This document shows positions 1,134 to 46,977 of a stretch of DNA of 64,000 bases, in pieces; the first letter of the stretch is position 1; the number at the start of each line of letters is the position of its first letter. A model generated the notes under the pieces. It did no database searches. It was not told where the DNA came from and saw only the letters and a list, made by a program, of their open reading frames with translations. The DNA lies in contig JADQBQ010000002.1 of NCBI GenBank assembly GCA_016278505.1, positions 153,638 through 217,637 on the forward strand, read 5' to 3'. This DNA comes from Clostridiales bacterium. GTDB taxonomy: Bacteria; Bacillota; Desulfotomaculia; Desulfotomaculales; VENG01. The position numbers and the translations under genes are program-made.

Positions 1134-3770
1134 TTAAAGCTCTCCGGTATATGCTTTTTTATATATATCTACTAATTCCGGGATTAGAGGCTGCCTGGGA
1201 TTGGAGATAGTTGCCTGGTCATGAAATGCCTTTTCTGCCAGTACCTCCACCCCGTCCATATATACCCCCTCATTAACTCCGCAGTCTGCTATGGTAAGCG
1301 GCATGTCCAGCCTGCGCATTAATTCCTGGATTGCTTTAATCAGGCTATTAATACCCTCTTCCTCATTATTAGCTTGTAGTCCCAAGAAACGTGCTATCTC
1401 CAGGTATTTTTCCGGAGCCTTAAAATACTCGTACTGTGGAAAGGAAGTAAATTTAGTTGGGAGTTGCGAATTATATTTTATTACATGCGGTAGTAATATG
1501 GCATTAGCCCTGCCGTGAGTAATGTGGAATTCCCCACCCAACTTATGGGCCAGGCTATGACAGATACCTAAAAATGCATTGGTAAAAGCCATGCCTGCCA
1601 TGCAGGAGGCATGGTGCATTTTCTCCCGGGCCGCACGGTTTGAACCGTTTTGATAAGCCTTAGGTAAATTATCAAAAACCAATTCGATAGTCTTTATCGC
1701 CAGGGCATCTGTGTACTCCGATGCCATAACAGAAACATAAGCCTCTACGGCATGGGTCAATACATCCAGACCGGTATCCGCCGTAATTGAAGGCGGTATG
1801 GTCATGACAAAGTCACTGTCAATGATGGCCACGTCCGGGGTTAACTCGTAATCGGCAAGGGGATATTTGATATCCTCACCTTTGTGTGTTATAACTGAAA
1901 AAGCACTAACTTCGGATCCTGTCCCGCTGGTTGTGGGTATAGCTACCAACCGGGCCTGTCTCCCAAGTTTGGGATACTTAAAAGTGCGCTTTCTAATGTC
2001 CATAAACTTTAATTTCAAAAAATCAAATTCCACTTCGGGGTGTTCGTAAAAAAGCCACATAGCCTTAGCTGCATCTATGGGAGAACCTCCCCCGAGAGCG
2101 ATAATTGTATCGGGTTTAAACTGGCGCATCATTCGCACACCGTTTTTAACTGTATCTACAGAGGGGTCAGGTTCTACCTCGGAAAACACCTCTATGGCCA
2201 CAGGGTTATTCCGTTTGTTTAAGTGATGGGTTATTTTATCGACGAAGCCCAGCTTTACCACCCCAGGATCGGTAACTATCATTACCCTGGTAACACCGGT
2301 CATTTTGGTCAGGTACCTTACTGACCCTGCCTTAAAATATATTCTTTCCGGCACTCGAAACCACTGTAACCTGTCACGCCTCTTAGCCACCCTTTTCACG
2401 TTAATCAGGTTTTTTACGCTAACGTTGGAAGTGGTGGCATTACCGCCGAAAGATCCACACCCCAGAGTAAGAGAAGGTATATTAACATTGTAGATGTCTC
2501 CTATTGCCCCGTGCGTGGCCGGAGAATTGACAATAATTCTACCTGCTCTCATCCTGTTGGAAAACTCTTGTATTTTAATATCCTCACCGGAATGAATAAC
2601 AGCCGAGTGCCCCAACCCTCCAAAGGCAAGCATCTCCTCACACCTGCTTACTCCGGCTTCAAAACTATCAACAATGTAACAAGCCAAAACAGGGCTGAGC
2701 TTTTCCATGGATAAGGGAAACTCCGGGCCCACACCGTCTAAGACGGCAACAAGTATTTTTGTATCAACGGGCACTTCTATGCCGGCCATTTTAGCAATAT
2801 CCGCAGCCCACTGACCCACAATATCAGGATTAATCCTGCAACTGTCCCTGTCGATTGCCGTTTCCTCAAGGCGCGCCATTTCTTCGTCATTTAAAAAATA
2901 GCACTTGTTACTTTTCATCAAAGAAATAACTTCTTCTGAGACTTCCCGGTCTAAAATCACTGCTTGCTCTGATGCACAAATGAGCCCGTTATCAAAGGTT
3001 TTACTCATAATGAGGTCAGTGACCGCCCTTTTAATGTGAGCATTCTTTTCTATGTAGCAGGGTACGTTTCCCGGCCCCACTCCTAATGCGGGCTTTCCGG
3101 TACTGTATGCCGCCCGAACCATTTCTGCTCCCCCGGTAGCTAAAATTAGGTTAACCCCGGGGTGCTGCATCAAGTACCTTGTTGCTTCTATAGAGGGTTT
3201 TTCGATCCACCCTATACAGTTTTCCGGCGCGCCTGCTTTCACTGCAGCTTCCAGCATTACCTTGGCTGACTCTGCACAACAACCCTGTGCCCCGGGATGA
3301 AAGCTGAATATTACGGGGTTCCTGGTCTTGGTACAAATAAGGGCCTTAAACATAGTGGTAGATGTAGGATTAGTAACCGGTATCAGAGCGGAAACCACAC
3401 CAACCGGTTCCGCAATTTCCCAATAATCATCTTCCTCATCTGTTCGGATTATCCCTACAGTTTTTTCATACTTGATGCCATGATAGATGGTTTCCGTTGC
3501 GAAAATGTTCTTGGTAACTTTATCTTCATAAATTCCACGTTGCGTTTCGTCAACAGCCATATGAGCCAATTCCGTATGTCTATCAAGTCCGGCGAGAGCC
3601 ATGGCCAGTATGATATTATCAATTTGTGTTTGATCCAATTTATAAAACTCATCCAGAGCTTTTCTTGCATTGTCTATGAGGTTGTCCACCATTTCTTTTA
3701 CACTGTCATCCACTGGAGCATGCTCGCAGGATACTTCTAACGGGTTGCCTCCACAATAATTTGCGGTCAT
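1134..3770 (-). CDS. adhE: bifunctional acetaldehyde-CoA/alcohol dehydrogenase AdhE
   Basis: About 878 residues with the typical AdhE fusion. The N-terminal half is a CoA-acylating aldehyde dehydrogenase, with the catalytic cysteine in the DNGLICASEQ motif near residue 240. The C-terminal half is an iron-dependent alcohol dehydrogenase with GGGSPIDAAKA and the metal-binding histidines of HAVEAY and GICHSLAHKLGG. It reduces acetyl-CoA through acetaldehyde to ethanol with NADH and usually forms spirosomes. The start is placed at the second methionine (MTANYCGG) because GGAGG stands 7-8 bases upstream; the longer frame adds seven residues without support. It is monocistronic, with about 155 bases of AT-rich DNA upstream in which I saw no clear Rex-type operator. 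Confidence 0.95.
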   Translation of the reverse strand: MTANYCGGNPLEVSCEHAPVDDSVKEMVDNLIDNARKALDEFYKLDQTQIDNIILAMALAGLDRHTELAHMAVDETQRGIYEDKVTKNIFATETIYHGIKYEKTVGIIRTDEEDDYWEIAEPVGVVSALIPVTNPTSTTMFKALICTKTRNPVIFSFHPGAQGCCAESAKVMLEAAVKAGAPENCIGWIEKPSIEATRYLMQHPGVNLILATGGAEMVRAAYSTGKPALGVGPGNVPCYIEKNAHIKRAVTDLIMSKTFDNGLICASEQAVILDREVSEEVISLMKSNKCYFLNDEEMARLEETAIDRDSCRINPDIVGQWAADIAKMAGIEVPVDTKILVAVLDGVGPEFPLSMEKLSPVLACYIVDSFEAGVSRCEEMLAFGGLGHSAVIHSGEDIKIQEFSNRMRAGRIIVNSPATHGAIGDIYNVNIPSLTLGCGSFGGNATTSNVSVKNLINVKRVAKRRDRLQWFRVPERIYFKAGSVRYLTKMTGVTRVMIVTDPGVVKLGFVDKITHHLNKRNNPVAIEVFSEVEPDPSVDTVKNGVRMMRQFKPDTIIALGGGSPIDAAKAMWLFYEHPEVEFDFLKLKFMDIRKRTFKYPKLGRQARLVAIPTTSGTGSEVSAFSVITHKGEDIKYPLADYELTPDVAIIDSDFVMTIPPSITADTGLDVLTHAVEAYVSVMASEYTDALAIKTIELVFDNLPKAYQNGSNRAAREKMHHASCMAGMAFTNAFLGICHSLAHKLGGEFHITHGRANAILLPHVIKYNSQLPTKFTSFPQYEYFKAPEKYLEIARFLGLQANNEEEGINSLIKAIQELMRRLDMPLTIADCGVNEGVYMDGVEVLAEKAFHDQATISNPRQPLIPELVDIYKKAYTGEL

Positions 3771-13154: not shown

Positions 13155-14009
13155 CTATTCAAAGCCTTCGAACAACTTACTATATTGCCGGGTCATTATC
13201 TGTGTTAATGCCCCGGCCTTGCCATTTCCAATCTTTTGTTCATCAACCGCTACCAGAGGCATAATCCCCATTAGAGAATTGGTTAAAAACGCCTCTTCTG
13301 ATGAGAACAACTCGCTGGGTGCCAGCGGGCATTCCTTAACCTGAATATTATTTTCCAAAGCCAGATCTATCACTTTTTGCCTGGTTATTCCTGGCAGTAG
13401 CCCTGAATTTACGTCCGGTGTATAAAGCACATTACTCTCAACAAAAAACAAATTACTTACCGTACCTTCACTTAAATAACCGCGGTGGTTCATATATAAT
13501 CCTTCATCCCAACCACGACGAAATGCTTCCTGCCGCCCCAGAATATTATCCAGATAATTTAAAGTTTTTAGCTTTAGCAATGGCGAATCAGCGTTGCGGC
13601 GGCATTTTAGAAACCCGGTCCGAAATCCTGCCCGGTAACAAGCATCTGCATAAGGTAGTCCATGCTTGACTGTAATCACCACATTTTGTCCGTACCATTC
13701 ATCTTCACTAGTATTCTCCTGTGCACCGGCAGAGACTGTGATTCGCAAACTGCCGTTTTTTAAGCTGTTGGCATCAATGATACGGGCAACCATTGTCTTA
13801 ATCGCTCTTATATCTATGGGATTAAGACCAATCTCATTCAGTGAATTCTTCATTCTTCGTAAATGTTCTGTTAAGAATACTGGTCCTTTGGGTAAAACAC
13901 GTACGGTCTCGAAAAGCCCGTAACCATATAATAATCCTCTGTCAGTGACAGGAATAAAAGCCTCTTTGCTGCTCACAATATCACCGTTAACGCAAATGTA
14001 CTCTTTCAT
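13155..14009 (-). CDS. pabC: aminodeoxychorismate lyase (class IV aminotransferase)
   Basis: A 284-residue fold-type IV PLP enzyme. The family features are DRGLLYGYGLFETVRV near residue 24, the PLP lysine region LKTLNYLDNILGRQEA and YLSEGTVSNLFFV. Branched-chain and D-amino acid aminotransferases share this fold, but its place after pabA and pabB makes 4-amino-4-deoxychorismate lyase, which releases p-aminobenzoate and pyruvate for folate synthesis, the best call. GGGAG lies upstream of ATG 14,009. A hairpin sits in the 107-base gap to pabB. Confidence 0.87.
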   Translation of the reverse strand: MKEYICVNGDIVSSKEAFIPVTDRGLLYGYGLFETVRVLPKGPVFLTEHLRRMKNSLNEIGLNPIDIRAIKTMVARIIDANSLKNGSLRITVSAGAQENTSEDEWYGQNVVITVKHGLPYADACYRAGFRTGFLKCRRNADSPLLKLKTLNYLDNILGRQEAFRRGWDEGLYMNHRGYLSEGTVSNLFFVESNVLYTPDVNSGLLPGITRQKVIDLALENNIQVKECPLAPSELFSSEEAFLTNSLMGIMPLVAVDEQKIGNGKAGALTQIMTRQYSKLFEGFE

Positions 14010-14116: not shown

Positions 14117-15511
14117 TTATTCCAAGCCCAAAGCTCTCATCAGTGCTCTGGCTTTATCCAACGTTTCATCATATTCCGCCGCAGGATCAGAGTCAGCGGT
14201 TATACCGCCCCCTACCTGAAAATAGAGCTCTTCCCCCTTGGAAATAATAGTTCTTATCACTATATTCAAATCCACTTGCCCATCAAAGCCCAGGTATCCT
14301 ATAGAACCGGTATAGATTCCCCTGCGTACCGGCTCTAACTCCTCAATTATTTCCATGGCCCTTATTTTTGGTGCTCCGGTTATTGACCCACCCGGAAAGG
14401 CCGCCCTTAACATATCAATGAAATCCTTGTCATCCGGCAGTTCCCCCTCCACGGTGGATACAAGGTGAAAAACTGTGGCATACTCTTCCAAGCGCAGCAA
14501 TTCAGGCACCCGCACCGATCCAATCCTGCAAATTCGCCCCAAGTCGTTTCGCTCTAAGTCAACTATCATCATCAACTCCGCCCTATCTTTGGCGCTGTTC
14601 CAGAGCTCTGCTTTTAACCTTTCATCCTGCTGCGGTGTTTTGCCCCGTGGCCTGGTACCCTTAATAGGCCTGGTTTCAACTTTTTGGCCGTCAATTTTCA
14701 AATACCGCTCCGGGGACGCGGATATAACCCTAAAATCGCCAAAATTTAAATAAGCGGCAAAGGGTGCCGGGTTAATTTCGTGCAGTTTGCAATACAGTGC
14801 CCACGGGTCTCCCTTATAATTAACAGAAAATCGTTGCGATAAATTAGCCTGGAAAATATCTCCGGCGTGTATGTAATCAACCACTTTCTGCACAGCGTTC
14901 ATGTATTCTTTGGGGGTAAAATGTCTCTCCAGAGTTCCGTTGGCCGGTGAGACCGTATGATTTATCACTTGGGTGCCCAACATGCTTTCAAATTCTTTCA
15001 GGCGTGCCTGAGCCCTAAACAAAGCCTGTTCTCCTTTTTCAGGCAACCCGGTTGATATAATATACACTGCCTTCTTGTGGTGATCAATTAAGCCAATAAC
15101 ATCATAGAAACCAAAGCAGCAATCGGGCGTTTGCAGATCGTCCACAGCTTGCGACGGCATCTTTTCCAGATAGCGCCCCAGATCATAGCTAAAGTAACCC
15201 ACCGCACCACCGTTAAAAGGAAAGCTTGGATTAATTGGTGCCTGTGCAAACTCCTTCATGTAACGTCGAAGTTCTTCCAAGGGACAGCCCTCGTATGCGC
15301 TCATTTCCCCATTCCGGTTCACCTTTATTCTACCGTCCTTAACCTCAAGAGTCATAAAGGGTGTGGCACCCAAAAAAGAATAATGGCCCAAACCTTGTAC
15401 AGTCATCCCGGAATCCAGTAAGAAACTAAAGGTTGAGCTCTGCAGCGGACTATAAAGGGAAAGAACATCCACCTTGAGGTTAAGACGCTTGACCAGCGGC
15501 AAGATTGGCAA
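14117..15511 (-). CDS. pabB: aminodeoxychorismate synthase component I
   Basis: About 464 residues of the chorismate-binding family (anthranilate synthase component I/PabB). PIKGTRPRG marks PabB rather than TrpE, because the lysine forms the covalent adduct in aminodeoxychorismate synthase. DRAELMMIVDLERNDLGR, FPGGSITGAPK and IYTGSIGYLGFDG are present. It aminates chorismate with ammonia delivered by PabA. The start is uncertain: TTG 15,511 has GGGGGTG upstream, GTG 15,526 is an alternative. It overlaps the end of pabA by about 30 bases, indicating translational coupling. Confidence 0.9.
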   Translation of the reverse strand: MPILPLVKRLNLKVDVLSLYSPLQSSTFSFLLDSGMTVQGLGHYSFLGATPFMTLEVKDGRIKVNRNGEMSAYEGCPLEELRRYMKEFAQAPINPSFPFNGGAVGYFSYDLGRYLEKMPSQAVDDLQTPDCCFGFYDVIGLIDHHKKAVYIISTGLPEKGEQALFRAQARLKEFESMLGTQVINHTVSPANGTLERHFTPKEYMNAVQKVVDYIHAGDIFQANLSQRFSVNYKGDPWALYCKLHEINPAPFAAYLNFGDFRVISASPERYLKIDGQKVETRPIKGTRPRGKTPQQDERLKAELWNSAKDRAELMMIVDLERNDLGRICRIGSVRVPELLRLEEYATVFHLVSTVEGELPDDKDFIDMLRAAFPGGSITGAPKIRAMEIIEELEPVRRGIYTGSIGYLGFDGQVDLNIVIRTIISKGEELYFQVGGGITADSDPAAEYDETLDKARALMRALGLE

Positions 15512-16088
15512 TCCACTCACCCCCACGCCACGCCAGGAAGTTAGCCAAAATCCTTTTTCCTTCTCCGGTTAATATTGATTCAGGGTGGAATTGAACTCCC
15601 TCCACGGTAAAGCGCCTGTGCCTTATACCCATCAATTCTCCGTCTGCGCTATATGATACAGCCTGCAAAATATTTGGCAGTCCTTCATCCTGTACCACTA
15701 AAGAATGATATCGGGCGGCGGCAAGTGGAGACACCAACCCGTTGTATACACCCTTACCGTCGTGCCTAATGAGGGAGCTTTTTCCGTGCACAGGACGCTT
15801 GGCCCTAATCACTTTCCCCCCGAAGGCCTGTCCTATGGATTGGTGCCCTAAACATACACCTAAAATGGGGCACTTACCTGCAAATGCCCGAACCAACTCT
15901 ACTGAAATACCGGCTTCATTCGGCGTGCACGGCCCCGGAGAGAGAACAATATGGGTAGGTTTTCTGACCTCAACCTCACTCACTGTTATTTCATCATTAC
16001 GAAAAACTTCCACTGCTACCCCTAATTCGCGGATATACTGGTAGAGATTGTAAACAAAAGAATCATAGTTATCAAGGAGTATGATCAT
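15480..16088 (-). CDS. pabA: aminodeoxychorismate/anthranilate synthase glutaminase subunit
   Basis: About 202 residues, a class I glutamine amidotransferase. LDNYDSFVYN begins the protein, LSPGPCTPNEAG forms the oxyanion region, GVCLGHQSIG holds the nucleophilic cysteine and VQFHPES the catalytic histidine-glutamate. It releases ammonia from glutamine for PabB; in bacteria with a single glutaminase it also serves TrpE. ATG 16,088 is chosen because the DNYDSF motif must be N-terminal. First gene of the pabA-pabB-pabC operon, preceded by a regulatory leader with a terminator and NAG triplets. Confidence 0.92.
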   Translation of the reverse strand: MIILLDNYDSFVYNLYQYIRELGVAVEVFRNDEITVSEVEVRKPTHIVLSPGPCTPNEAGISVELVRAFAGKCPILGVCLGHQSIGQAFGGKVIRAKRPVHGKSSLIRHDGKGVYNGLVSPLAAARYHSLVVQDEGLPNILQAVSYSADGELMGIRHRRFTVEGVQFHPESILTGEGKRILANFLAWRGGEWIANLAAGQAS

Positions 16089-16129: not shown

Positions 16130-16159
16130 AAAAAAAGACCAGCACAAAACGCACTGGTC
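16130..16159 (-). terminator. attenuator-type terminator in the pabA leader
   Basis: On the minus strand GGACCAG..GC pairs with GC..CTGGTC around a T-rich loop, followed by seven T residues. It lies about 40 bases before the pabA start and downstream of the promoter, so it must be bypassed for pab expression. Confidence 0.8.
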
Positions 16160-16227
16160 CTCACCCCAAGCTCCGAGTCGTCTCATCTCCACTCTAATTT
16201 ACCACTCATCTACTCTATGCTCAGCTT
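16160..16227 (-). promoter_or_regulatory. TRAP-like NAG triplet array in the pab operon leader
   Basis: On the minus strand the leader reads AAG-ct-GAG-ca-TAG-ag-TAG-at-GAG (five triplets, each gap exactly two bases), then after 10 bases GAG-tg-GAG-at-GAG, then two further GAG triplets each 8 bases on. That makes ten triplets in 68 bases. The TRAP protein (MtrB) of Bacillus binds 9-11 GAG/UAG triplets spaced 2-3 bases apart in the trp leader and at pabA (trpG). The last triplet touches the terminator stem. Tryptophan-dependent attenuation is the inferred role; whether an mtrB gene exists in this genome cannot be seen here. Confidence 0.65.
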
Positions 16228-16243
16228 TCAATTGTATGCAGAC

Positions 16244-16272
16244 AGTGTAATATAATCCCCGGCAGGTGTCAA
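16244..16272 (-). promoter_or_regulatory. promoter of the pab operon
   Basis: A perfect -35 TTGACA (16,267-16,272), a 17-base spacer and TACACT as -10. The start near 16,237 places the whole triplet array and the terminator in the transcript. Confidence 0.6.
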
Positions 16273-16356: not shown

Positions 16357-17166
16357 TTATTTACCCACCTTTCCCTTTTTATTAACCAGTAAAACGGTTA
16401 TCAAGATGGCAATAGATGTAAGTATAATGGTACCACCGGGAGGCAAATTTAAGTAGAAAGATATAAAAAGGCCAAGTGCAACCGATAACTCACTAAATAA
16501 TACAGACAATAAAAGGGCGGAACGAAAGCTTACAGCTAATCGCAAACTTGCAGTAACCGGCAATATCATTAGAGAACTTACTAATAAAACTCCTACAGTC
16601 TTCATAGCCACGGCAATGGTTAAGGCCGTAAGAACCATAAACCCCACCCCTAAAGCCTTGACCGGTACTCCACTGACCTGAGCGGCTTCCTCGTCAAAAG
16701 TTGTATAGAACAATTCTTTATAAAAAAGAAAAATTAAAAAAAGTGCAATAATCCCAATCCCGGCAATGATCCACATGTCGAAAGAGTTTAAAACCATAAG
16801 GCTGCCGAAAAGATAACCCATAAAATTAGCATTAAAGCCTCCGGCAAGTCCCATAAAAACAGCGGCAAGTGCAACACCACCGGACAATATGACAGCAATA
16901 GAAAGCTCGGCGTAATCCTTATAGGCTATACGCAGTCTTTCCATGAGCAGTCCTCCCCCCACTGCAAACGCTGACGCTGTAATCACAGGATGGGTGCCGG
17001 CCAATAATGCTGCCGCAACTCCGGACAAGCAAAGGTGTGACAGGGCATCGGCTACCAGTGACAAACGGCGCAGGGTGATAAACAGCCCAACCACAGGACA
17101 TAAAACCCCTACAACCACTCCTACAATAAAGGCATTTTGCATAAATGCATAAGCAAATATATCCAC
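16357..17166 (-). CDS. znuB: zinc/manganese ABC transporter permease
   Basis: A 269-residue ABC-3 family membrane protein with about eight hydrophobic segments and the family motifs CPVVGLFITLRRLSLVADALSH near the N terminus and DEEAAQVSGVPV in the middle loop. It forms the channel for metal import across the cytoplasmic membrane. GTG at 17,166 follows GGGGAGG. It is the last gene of the zur-znuA-znuC-znuB operon. The Fur-type regulator at the operon head makes zinc the most likely metal, with manganese as an alternative. Confidence 0.88.
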   Translation of the reverse strand: MDIFAYAFMQNAFIVGVVVGVLCPVVGLFITLRRLSLVADALSHLCLSGVAAALLAGTHPVITASAFAVGGGLLMERLRIAYKDYAELSIAVILSGGVALAAVFMGLAGGFNANFMGYLFGSLMVLNSFDMWIIAGIGIIALFLIFLFYKELFYTTFDEEAAQVSGVPVKALGVGFMVLTALTIAVAMKTVGVLLVSSLMILPVTASLRLAVSFRSALLLSVLFSELSVALGLFISFYLNLPPGGTIILTSIAILITVLLVNKKGKVGK

Positions 17167-17231
17167 TTTCTACCCTCCCCAATCAGCCGGCTTAAGACAT
17201 ATGCACCCCCAAGGGTACTTTGCACTACTGT

Positions 17232-17963
17232 TTATACCATCGCCAGCCTTTTGGAACACGCCTCATTACTTTGTTTACCAGTATCCGATAGCTTCTTCTG
17301 ACAAAAGCAGAGCTTCCTGTCCAGACAAACCTGCTTAGTAAGCAAAGGTGATACTTCTTCCACATCATGTGAAACCAACATCAAGGTAACTCCCTTTTCG
17401 CTATTTAGCTCAGAAAGAATTCTATACAATTCATGTCTTCCGCTCACATCCAAACCCGCTGTTGGCTCATCCATGATGAGCAGCTGGGGTTTGGCAGCAA
17501 GGGCCCTAGCCAGCAATATTTTTTGTTGCTGACCGCCGGACATATTTCCTACCATATGATGACTCATATTCAGCATACCAACGGTATCTAGGGCTTCATC
17601 AACAACTTTATAATCCTCTTTTCTCAACCGTCGTAAAATTCCTCTAGCGGGAACACGTCCGGATGCTACAACCTCTCTGGACGTAGCGGGAAAAGACTTA
17701 TTAAAGAAACGGGCATTCTGAGAAATATAACCTAGCCTAAACCTTTCCTTGAAAGCCATACTGTCCATTCCGAATATGTTTACCTTGCCCTTTTGCGGTT
17801 GTAATTGCCCTAGTATTAATTTTAAAATAGTTGTTTTGCCGGCGCCGTTTGGCCCTGTTATTCCAACTACATCGCCGGAATTAACCTGTAAGTTAACCTC
17901 ATCCAAAACAGGGTGACAGCCGTACGTAAAAAATACGGAACAAAGTTCAACCACTGTGCTCAT
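17232..17963 (-). CDS. znuC: zinc/manganese ABC transporter ATP-binding protein
   Basis: A 243-residue ABC ATPase. Walker A GPNGAGKTT, the signature MSGGQQQKILLARAL, Walker B LLIMDEPTAGLD and the switch histidine in LVSHD are all intact. It powers metal import by the adjacent permease. It starts 1 base after the end of znuA and the metal-binding protein, permease and ATPase genes are contiguous. The C-terminal tail with three cysteines (CLDRKLCFCQKK) is unusual for the family and could sense metal, which is inference. Confidence 0.9.
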   Translation of the reverse strand: MSTVVELCSVFFTYGCHPVLDEVNLQVNSGDVVGITGPNGAGKTTILKLILGQLQPQKGKVNIFGMDSMAFKERFRLGYISQNARFFNKSFPATSREVVASGRVPARGILRRLRKEDYKVVDEALDTVGMLNMSHHMVGNMSGGQQQKILLARALAAKPQLLIMDEPTAGLDVSGRHELYRILSELNSEKGVTLMLVSHDVEEVSPLLTKQVCLDRKLCFCQKKLSDTGKQSNEACSKRLAMV

Positions 17964-17964
17964 T

Positions 17965-18924
17965 TTATCCCCCCAATCCTTCCTTGAGGTTGGCCATATT
18001 CTTACGCATCAAGGTAAAATAATTTTCACCTTGAGCTTTGTTTTCTACAGATATACCACCTAATGTATACAAAACAAGGGTTTTTACCCCGGCTTCTCTG
18101 GCAATAGTCTCGCTTATTTTAGGGCTTACTAAGGACTCAAAAAAAACACATTTAATATTTTTTTGCCGAATAGTATCAACTATTTCTGCTAACCTCGCCG
18201 GACCCGGTTCAACTTCCGGTGAAATACCCCTTACAGCAATCTGATTTAGCCCGTACCGCTGTGCCATATAGCCGAAAGCAGAATGGGATACCACAATGTC
18301 ACTTAAACTTATATCTTGTAGTGTGTTTTTAAAATCTTGGTCAAGCTCTATTAACTTTTGGGTTAATAAATCCCGGCGGTGCCGAAAAAAATCGGCATTA
18401 GCAGGGTCAATTGCACAAAGAGCCTTTGTTATATTGTCTACCATTATTGCAGCATTCACAGGATTGGTCCATATATGGGGATCAACCCTGGCTTCGCGCT
18501 TATCTTCCACGTGCTGTACCCCGCCGGCCTCCAGTAAATCAATATTTTCACTGCAATCTACTGTCCTAACTCCTGTATCCAGACCGGCAAGCACATCATC
18601 AATCCATGCTTCCATGCCGGCACCACTGTAGACAAGAGCATCTGCCTGATTCATTTTCACCATATCCCTGGGGGAAGGTTCCCAGTGGTGTGCCTCGCCT
18701 CCGGATGGTATTAAATTTATAACATTTGCTTTATCCATGGCAATCTCTGATGTAAAATAATACACTGGGTAGATGGTTGTAAAAACCGTGAGTTTTGCTT
18801 CGCCCAAAGCCACACTGCCTGAATCCCCATCAACCGTATTTACTGCACAACCTGCTGAAAGGATAATTATAAAGAAAATAGTAAAGCAGTACGCTGTGAT
18901 ATATTTTGAGTGAACAGGAGTCAT
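17965..18924 (-). CDS. znuA: zinc/manganese ABC transporter substrate-binding lipoprotein
   Basis: A 319-residue cluster A-I (ZnuA/TroA) binding protein. The signal peptide ends with the lipobox LSAGC. Metal ligands of the family are visible: histidine in GGEAHHWEP, histidine in DPHIWT, histidine in VVSHSAFGY and a late acidic residue. There is no long His-rich loop, so it is a compact form. It captures the metal ion outside the cell and hands it to ZnuB. Its start overlaps the stop of the upstream Fur-type gene by four bases (ATGA). Confidence 0.88.
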   Translation of the reverse strand: MTPVHSKYITAYCFTIFFIIILSAGCAVNTVDGDSGSVALGEAKLTVFTTIYPVYYFTSEIAMDKANVINLIPSGGEAHHWEPSPRDMVKMNQADALVYSGAGMEAWIDDVLAGLDTGVRTVDCSENIDLLEAGGVQHVEDKREARVDPHIWTNPVNAAIMVDNITKALCAIDPANADFFRHRRDLLTQKLIELDQDFKNTLQDISLSDIVVSHSAFGYMAQRYGLNQIAVRGISPEVEPGPARLAEIVDTIRQKNIKCVFFESLVSPKISETIAREAGVKTLVLYTLGGISVENKAQGENYFTLMRKNMANLKEGLGG

Positions 18925-19373
18925 TCCTCGCCCTCCCCTTCATTTTCTTCTATCTGAATACAGTGTGAACAATAACCAAAGATTTCAAAACGGTGGTTTT
19001 TAACTTTAAAGTCTTTTTTAAGCACTTTATTCCAATCAAAGTAATCCAAGGGACAAAAATCAAGCTTTTGTGATACCCCACAGCCAAGGCAAATGAGATG
19101 GTGAGAGTGGCCGTCACCATCCCTGTTAAGTTCGTACCTGTTTTTGCCGCCAAAATTAATCTCACTTACAATATTTAAATTGCGTAAAAGAGCCAGGTTT
19201 CGGTAAACTGTATCCAATCCCATGGCGGGATAATGAGAGCAAATTCGTTTATGAACTTCTTCCGCACTTTGGTGCCCTTCTCGCTCGGAAAGGACTTCAA
19301 TTATTTCTTGCCTTTGAGGTGTTACTTTGTATCCTTTATTTCTTAATTCTTTTAACAACTTGGTTTTATCCAT
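18921..19373 (-). CDS. zur: Fur-family metalloregulator, probably Zur
   Basis: About 150 residues. A winged-helix DNA-binding domain (TPQRQEIIEVL, GLDTVYRNLALL) is followed by the Fur dimerisation domain with HSHHLICLGCG and a C-terminal CSHC pair. The two CxxC pairs form the structural zinc site. It heads the metal transporter operon, so a zinc-responsive repressor controlling its own operon is the natural reading; PerR or Mur activity cannot be excluded by sequence alone. ATG at 19,373 follows GGAGG directly. Confidence 0.85.
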   Translation of the reverse strand: MDKTKLLKELRNKGYKVTPQRQEIIEVLSEREGHQSAEEVHKRICSHYPAMGLDTVYRNLALLRNLNIVSEINFGGKNRYELNRDGDGHSHHLICLGCGVSQKLDFCPLDYFDWNKVLKKDFKVKNHRFEIFGYCSHCIQIEENEGEGEE

Positions 19374-19414
19374 ATTATCCTCCACCCAATTAGGAAACAT
19401 TCTTAATTACTATA

Positions 19415-46830: not shown

Positions 46831-46837
46831 TCTTAAT

Positions 46838-46920
46838 TGAGCAGCCTGGCAACCATAGTAGAAAATACCGTAGGCCCATTGGCTTTGCGTCCCGGTCTTT
46901 CGACCAGTTTGCCCTATTTA
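46838..46920 (-). ncRNA. cyclic-di-GMP-I (GEMM) riboswitch
   Basis: On the minus strand the aptamer core matches the Vibrio Vc2 class: AGGGCAAAC, then CUGGUCGAAAGACCGG with its GAAA tetraloop, GGACGCAAAGCC, the GGGCCUA segment and UAUGGUUGCCAGG, which holds the tetraloop receptor. All conserved blocks occur in order and spacing. It binds cyclic di-GMP and controls the downstream mRNA, here probably the ImmA-like gene at 46,206-46,736. Confidence 0.93.
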
Positions 46921-46977
46921 GTTGACTCAGGGATGGATTTCCTATTATTAAAAGGACCATTGTCCTATTGTGATCGC

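Follow-up and report, generated by a model that had tools for sequence, protein, structure and literature searches.

A putative TRAP-controlled transcription attenuator with a conserved pseudoknot in front of pab genes in Desulfotomaculales

The leader of the pabABC operon in a 64-kb window (the whole stretch of DNA that was analysed, 64,000 nucleotides) from a bacterium of the order Desulfotomaculales is probably a transcription attenuator, in which a TRAP-type triplet array is combined with a pseudoknot antiterminator that would be blocked by TRAP-tryptophan. Comparison of related leaders and genomes brings out the parts of this system, namely the array, stem 1 and stem 2 of the pseudoknot, the terminator, the downstream pab genes and TRAP in the genome. 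From their arrangement we infer TRAP binding, the block of the pseudoknot, terminator formation and a fall in pab at high tryptophan. When tryptophan is scarce, the pseudoknot would fold first in the nascent RNA, the terminator would not form and pab would be transcribed. With ample tryptophan, the TRAP ring of 11 subunits would wrap the array, including the GAG of stem 1 and the KAG of loop 1. In the TRAP-wrapped leader the pseudoknot would be prevented, the terminator would form and pab would be switched off along with trp. A previous sequence-only reading of this DNA had proposed the array and the terminator, and that part of it stands; the conserved 3' pseudoknot and its occurrence without TRAP had been missed.

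All features of the leader lie on the minus strand of the window (Table 1). Along this strand the order is TTGACA, 17 nt, TACACT, ACAAUUGAAAGCUGAGCAUAGAGUAGAUGAGUGGUAAAUUAGAGUGGAGAUGAGACGACUCGGAGCUUGGGGUGAGGACCAGUGC-GUUUU-GUGCUGGUCUUUUUUU and the pabA ATG at 16088. The earlier count of ten GAG/UAG/AAG triplets in 68 nt, with six of nine gaps exactly two bases, has been reproduced by chain scoring: the best chain has 10 members, one of them AAG, with gaps of 2,2,2,2,10,2,2,8,8. Three of these gaps (10, 8, 8) differ from the TRAP spacing of 2–3 nt. The array scores 16.5. Two sets of 2000 dinucleotide shuffles failed to reach this value, the highest shuffled score being 12.1 over 240 nt in one and 15.5 over 107 nt in the other, and the second-highest score on either strand of the window is 7.3. 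The coordinates also agree with the earlier placement of the array between a TTGACA promoter and an intrinsic terminator upstream of pabA, the terminator being present between the array and this first gene. The last two triplets (16173-16171 and 16162-16160) fall within the pseudoknot.

Table 1. Features of the pab leader and operon in the window, with the evidence for each
Feature	Position	Strand	Evidence
Sigma-70-type promoter, TTGACA-17 nt-TACACT (predicted)	16244..16272 (TTGACA 16272-16267, TACACT 16249-16244)	minus	sequence reading
Predicted transcription start	near 16237	minus	sequence reading
TRAP-type array, ten GAG/UAG/AAG triplets	16227-16160 (68 nt)	minus	chain scoring against shuffles
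Stem 1 5' strand, CUCG	16174..16177	minus	CUC:GAG or CGC:GCG in 80/80 leaders
Stem 2 5' strand, UUGG (putative antiterminator strand)	16166..16169	minus	pairs with CCAG 16157-16154
Stem 1 3' strand, UGAG, holds last GAG triplet	16160..16163	minus	alignment
Stem 2 3' strand, CCAG, also terminator 5' arm	16154..16157	minus	alignment, covariation
Terminator hairpin (9-bp stem, loop GUUUU) and U7	16159-16137; U7 16136-16130	minus	fold, covariation
pabA, glutamine amidotransferase	15480..16088	minus	TIGR00566 trpG_papA
pabB	14117..15526	minus	above cut-offs of TIGR01824 and TIGR00553; under trpE cut-off
pabC-like aminodeoxychorismate lyase	13155..14009	minus	best NCBIfam match, under its cut-off

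The trp-operon enzyme passes the TrpE model and fails the PabB models, which is the reverse of the PabB in the window; the window operon is therefore pab and not trp. Directly upstream of the pab promoter (16357-19400, minus strand) there is a metal ABC transporter cluster (permease, ATPase and binding protein) with a Fur-family regulator, as named from the translations.

One TRAP (mtrB) gene has been found in the genome (PF02081, 1.7e-39; NCBIfam MtrB, 137 bits against a cut-off of 117), and PDB TRAP chains match it. In the alignment TEKLD and AIKIRG, the surroundings of Lys37, Lys56 and Arg58, are nearly identical to SEKLD and AVKIRG of the solved TRAPs. TRAP is also encoded in 58 of 60 relatives. 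Similar arrays occur before trp genes of the same genome. The trpB-trpA-trpD-trpC operon (L040, C15, 1835-2110, plus strand) has two tandem complete array-plus-terminator leaders, with gaps mostly of 2 and scores matched by 0 of 2000 shuffles each. The trpE leader is weaker and contains two short clusters, the best chain having five triplets (11 of 2000 shuffles).

A further locus of the genome (L041, C48, ~2330-2400, minus strand) chains twelve triplets into an almost perfect array, with gaps of 2,2,2,2,2,2,3,2,2,2 among eleven of them. The array has a promoter of its own and two stems that resemble terminators, and its neighbours are a DhnA-type aldolase gene on one side and a Uma2 (PF05685) gene on the other. 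It may be the leader of an operon since lost, or may act as a TRAP sponge.

The pab leader is shared with relatives. In a PabB-baited search of 60 relatives, 22 of the 43 upstream loci examined carry the same leader. R1, a covariance model built on the 3' part of the leader, matches 39 of the 113 genomes in the order. The other 74 are without a match, though nearly all of the genomes tested have TRAP, a point against the attenuator reading. In an even sample of the phylum R1 matches 42 of 398 genomes, 33 of them with E at most 4e-7, and TRAP is present in all 33 of these strong-match genomes compared with 200 of the 398 in the whole sample (a comparison by eye). Among the nine weaker matches the one in G409 is real and the other eight look like bare terminators. 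The E-values of R2 are poorly calibrated, and its matches below ~30 bits, mostly plain terminators in the sample inspected, were left uncounted except L288, in which the motif stands before pabB.

An exact-pattern scan of named genomes returned 49 stretches, forty of which fit, including those of Moorella thermoacetica, Desulfotomaculum copahuensis, Desulfofundulus, Desulfotruncus, Desulfallas, Desulfoscipio, Pelotomaculum and Candidatus Formimonas. Nine stretches from other phyla (L168, L175, L180, L188, L194, L196, L198, L208 and L212) are apparent chance matches; seven of them were re-parsed, and these lack a terminator and score no higher than 4.4 for the array. The leaders of same-order genomes are those of the named Desulfotomaculum, Desulfofundulus, Desulfotruncus, Desulfallas, Desulfoscipio and Pelotomaculum records, and the host, previously called a clostridium, is not a Clostridium proper. 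Three leaders from MAGs titled Actinobacteria, Armatimonadetes and Deltaproteobacteria (L171, L186 and L199) are identical to same-order leaders (L055, L152 and L074, respectively), and these titles are probably wrong. Desulfofundulus thermobenzoicus (G086, contig 244) has two copies, at 16461 and 27657 (L117 and L149), each before a pabA-like gene. The Moorella mulderi leader (L156 / L182) is without the terminator stem and has pabB matches downstream in pieces only, which reflects either decay or an assembly fault.

The 124 matches reduce to 72 distinct leaders, of which 62, from about 17 families, have a terminator. The ten excluded are seven chance matches, two at the end of a locus (L172 and L174) and one with a degraded terminator (L156). 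In the 62 leaders AG dinucleotides 5 nt apart number 303 against 81 expected, with a z of 28.7, and further peaks appear at 10, 15 and 20 nt (z 17.6, 9.3 and 8.8), values that overstate independence because the leaders share descent. The 5-nt spacing is the TRAP period. In 57 of the 62 leaders the upstream array scores above 95% or more of the shuffled versions of itself, the exceptions being L045, L074, L076, L077 and L121. Each leader has 7–12 triplets (median 9), and the array starts ~44 nt upstream of the motif. Nine upstream triplets plus those of loop 1 and stem 1 make eleven, the number of TRAP subunits, which is suggestive. Every leader with enough downstream sequence stands before pabA or pabB, and in Moorella pabB-first operons have it too. 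The conserved triplets, the mtrB gene and the trp arrays support the earlier suggestion that pab may be under tryptophan-controlled attenuation in this distant lineage. Neither of the two findings that were to refute that reading, a genome lacking an mtrB homologue or triplets not kept in related leaders, was obtained.

The 3' half of the leader contains a conserved H-type pseudoknot of ~30 nt, with CUC:GAG or CGC:GCG as stem 1 and YGG:CCR as stem 2. In the alignments this part, RAG-ACGA-CUCG-KAG-N-YGG-GG-U-GAG-N-A-CCR-G, is much more conserved than the array. For comparison of the stems, the 62 leaders and 20 CGC-type leaders, less two duplicates, give 80 distinct leaders. Of these, 55 have CUC:GAG as stem 1 and 25 have CGC:GCG, with no mixed pairs, and the switch from one to the other arose in two or more distinct clades (L052 and the f46 group). 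The GG:CC pairs of stem 2 never vary, and its outer pairs covary: 157 are formed compared with 144.9 when strands are swapped between leaders (0 of 5000 permutations), and the third and fourth pair together give 55 compared with 51.7 (72 of 5000 permutations). The third pair is C-A or A-A in 12 of the 80, leaving GG:CC, and all twelve are arrayed or weakly arrayed leaders. Covariation of the stems and the terminator was counted in 32 leaders (31 distinct) picked for variety. In this alignment the terminator covaries strongly and both stems exceed slid controls in cells paired and in covariation score, and the +3 slide control has more pairs changed on both sides than the stems.

Stem 2 and the terminator share CCR and are therefore mutually exclusive: with the pseudoknot on, the terminator is off. 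Stem 1 ends in GAG in 48 of 58 clear arrays, 7 of 7 weak arrays and 0 of 15 array-less leaders (Fisher p 2.7e-5, descent ignored; the array cut-off of 8.0 is our own choice), while in 10 of the 58 arrayed leaders it ends in GCG, which is not a TRAP triplet. An antiterminator overlapping the triplets can thus be proposed, its stem 1 including the last GAG and its stem 2 the terminator arm, and the covariation argues for it, with stem 2 incomplete in the twelve leaders above. A shared nested antiterminator was not found in MFE folds of 22 leaders, whether full or cut before the 3' arm of the terminator. The helix energies of arrayed leaders are modest (mean -10.6 kcal/mol before a pseudoknot penalty) and the nested fold is dominated by the terminator, so antitermination must be kinetic.

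Several other elements have been considered and set aside. UGGU-like local partners within the array are not conserved, an ACUC:GRGU helix is broken by L045 and by GGGAU leaders (CUC:GAG suits all), and a k-turn reading of GA...RA fails since the base following GAG may be C or U. Of 65 arrayed leaders, 35 have a conserved 5' element, ACAAYUGAAAG, at a steady distance of 38-54 nt from the pseudoknot. This element is not significant in array-less leaders, and the idea of an array inserted behind a fixed 5' element was given up for this reason.

The array-less leaders number fifteen distinct sequences with array scores of 2.8 or less, all before pabA or pabB. They have CGC:GCG as stem 1, five pairs in stem 2 in 15 of 15 (with A-U, G-C, G-U, U-G and C-G variants), and a first loop that starts with A (AA in 14) and not KAG. 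Ten come from TRAP genomes and five from one family without detectable TRAP; none of the 5 genomes of this family gave a TRAP match, and one of them is a single contig rated 100% complete. Without a pseudoknot penalty, their mean helix energy is -15.9 kcal/mol, compared with the -10.6 kcal/mol of leaders with array and CUC. The presence of the pseudoknot without an array and in a TRAP-less family makes it independent of TRAP, and its position before pab without an array gives it an input of its own, separate from TRAP. Since stem 2 excludes the terminator, a ligand stabilising stem 2 would switch pab on. In the simplest history the TRAP triplets would have been added to, and would have weakened, a pre-existing switch; the reverse order of acquisition may instead have taken place.

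In 80 distinct leaders the pab pseudoknot is an aptamer-like conserved fold joined to an expression platform, and it stands before the genes of one pathway wherever there was enough downstream sequence. It has a fair chance of being a new RNA class. A fuller proposal, which we hold tentatively and at a shade below an even chance, is that it forms an undescribed cis-regulatory class that controls p-aminobenzoate synthesis, probably as a compact riboswitch or protein switch of the ON type, and works alone in TRAP-less bacteria. The TRAP array would have been grafted onto it in sulfate-reducing and acetogenic relatives, stem 1 changing from CGC:GCG to CUC:GAG and loop 1 becoming KAG, so that both hold TRAP triplets. 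If so, a single ring protein governs a further RNA switch. In Rfam, neither the window leader nor the L143 leader reaches the gathering score of a family, and at E up to 10 both give only weak matches far below cut-off. The only gathering-score match in the window is a c-di-GMP-I-GGC riboswitch at 46836-46922, minus strand.

A related view is that the pseudoknot itself is the sensor, as a riboswitch or the site of another protein, in the window leader as well, with TRAP as a second, additive input. We regard this as plausible and give it rather less than an even chance. It draws on the fifteen leaders in which the pseudoknot stands alone before pabA or pabB, five of them from the TRAP-less family, and on the fact that the pseudoknot is strongest there, with the five-pair stem 2 and near-invariant GA/GA/AA loops; in several of them, judged by eye, the promoter is near the pseudoknot and there is no space for a leader peptide. 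However, the fold has no Rfam match and no known ligand, and stem 2 is weaker in arrayed leaders, as if TRAP took over sensing.

The other readings concern what TRAP or the triplets do. As the direction of control is read from geometry, TRAP binding might instead favour the pseudoknot and hence antitermination, which is unlikely because in most arrayed leaders the 3' strand of stem 1 and loop 1 are themselves TRAP triplets that a bound ring would occupy. A block of pabA translation by the array has a precedent in the known TRAP control of trpG (pabA) in B. subtilis, but it is very improbable here. None of the triplets of the window leader overlaps the pabA ribosome-binding site, the last one ending at 16160, ~70 nt before the ATG, with the terminator in between; the leader also heads pabB-first operons. 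Least credible of all is a chance or compositional pattern of triplets with no TRAP role, in which the pseudoknot alone matters. The five leaders without a significant upstream array would suit it, whereas the shuffles, the 5-nt period, the co-occurrence with TRAP and the lack of an array in the TRAP-less family speak strongly against it.

With attenuation by TRAP through the pseudoknot, folate synthesis in a distant lineage would also come under TRAP control, exerted by transcription termination. Because the Moorella pabB-first operons have the leader, a shared TrpG subunit would not fully account for this control, and tryptophan-folate cross-control would be more than a by-product of it. The comparison also brings to light a conserved, nameless pseudoknot before pab genes. 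In the open PMC subset we found no paper on the pab leader RNA or on TRAP control of pab in these bacteria, and none that describes a terminator under TRAP control ahead of pab, an antiterminator in pseudoknot form or its TRAP-free version. A term search of PMC2864571 returned no mention of pab.

Among known systems, the fluoride and ZTP riboswitches are small pseudoknot riboswitches of the ON type with a terminator. They resemble the pab leader in a pseudoknot strand that is also a terminator arm, in strongly conserved loops and in one class of downstream gene; the pab pseudoknot differs in being without a known ligand or an Rfam match. TRAP control of B. subtilis trpG (pabA) was reportedly described by Yang et al. 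in 1995, and its mechanism is said to be translational. The gene and the regulator are the same as here, but the control acts on translation there and on a terminator here. TRAP attenuation is known in Bacillus, where it uses 11 (G/U)AG repeats with 2–3 nt spacers (PMC3913778, PMC4027176). The pab leader shares with it the triplet array, the mutually exclusive antiterminator and terminator and the presence of TRAP in the genome. The antiterminator is a nested hairpin in Bacillus and a conserved pseudoknot here, where about nine triplets lie upstream and two within the pseudoknot, the target is pab and the lineage is a distant one.
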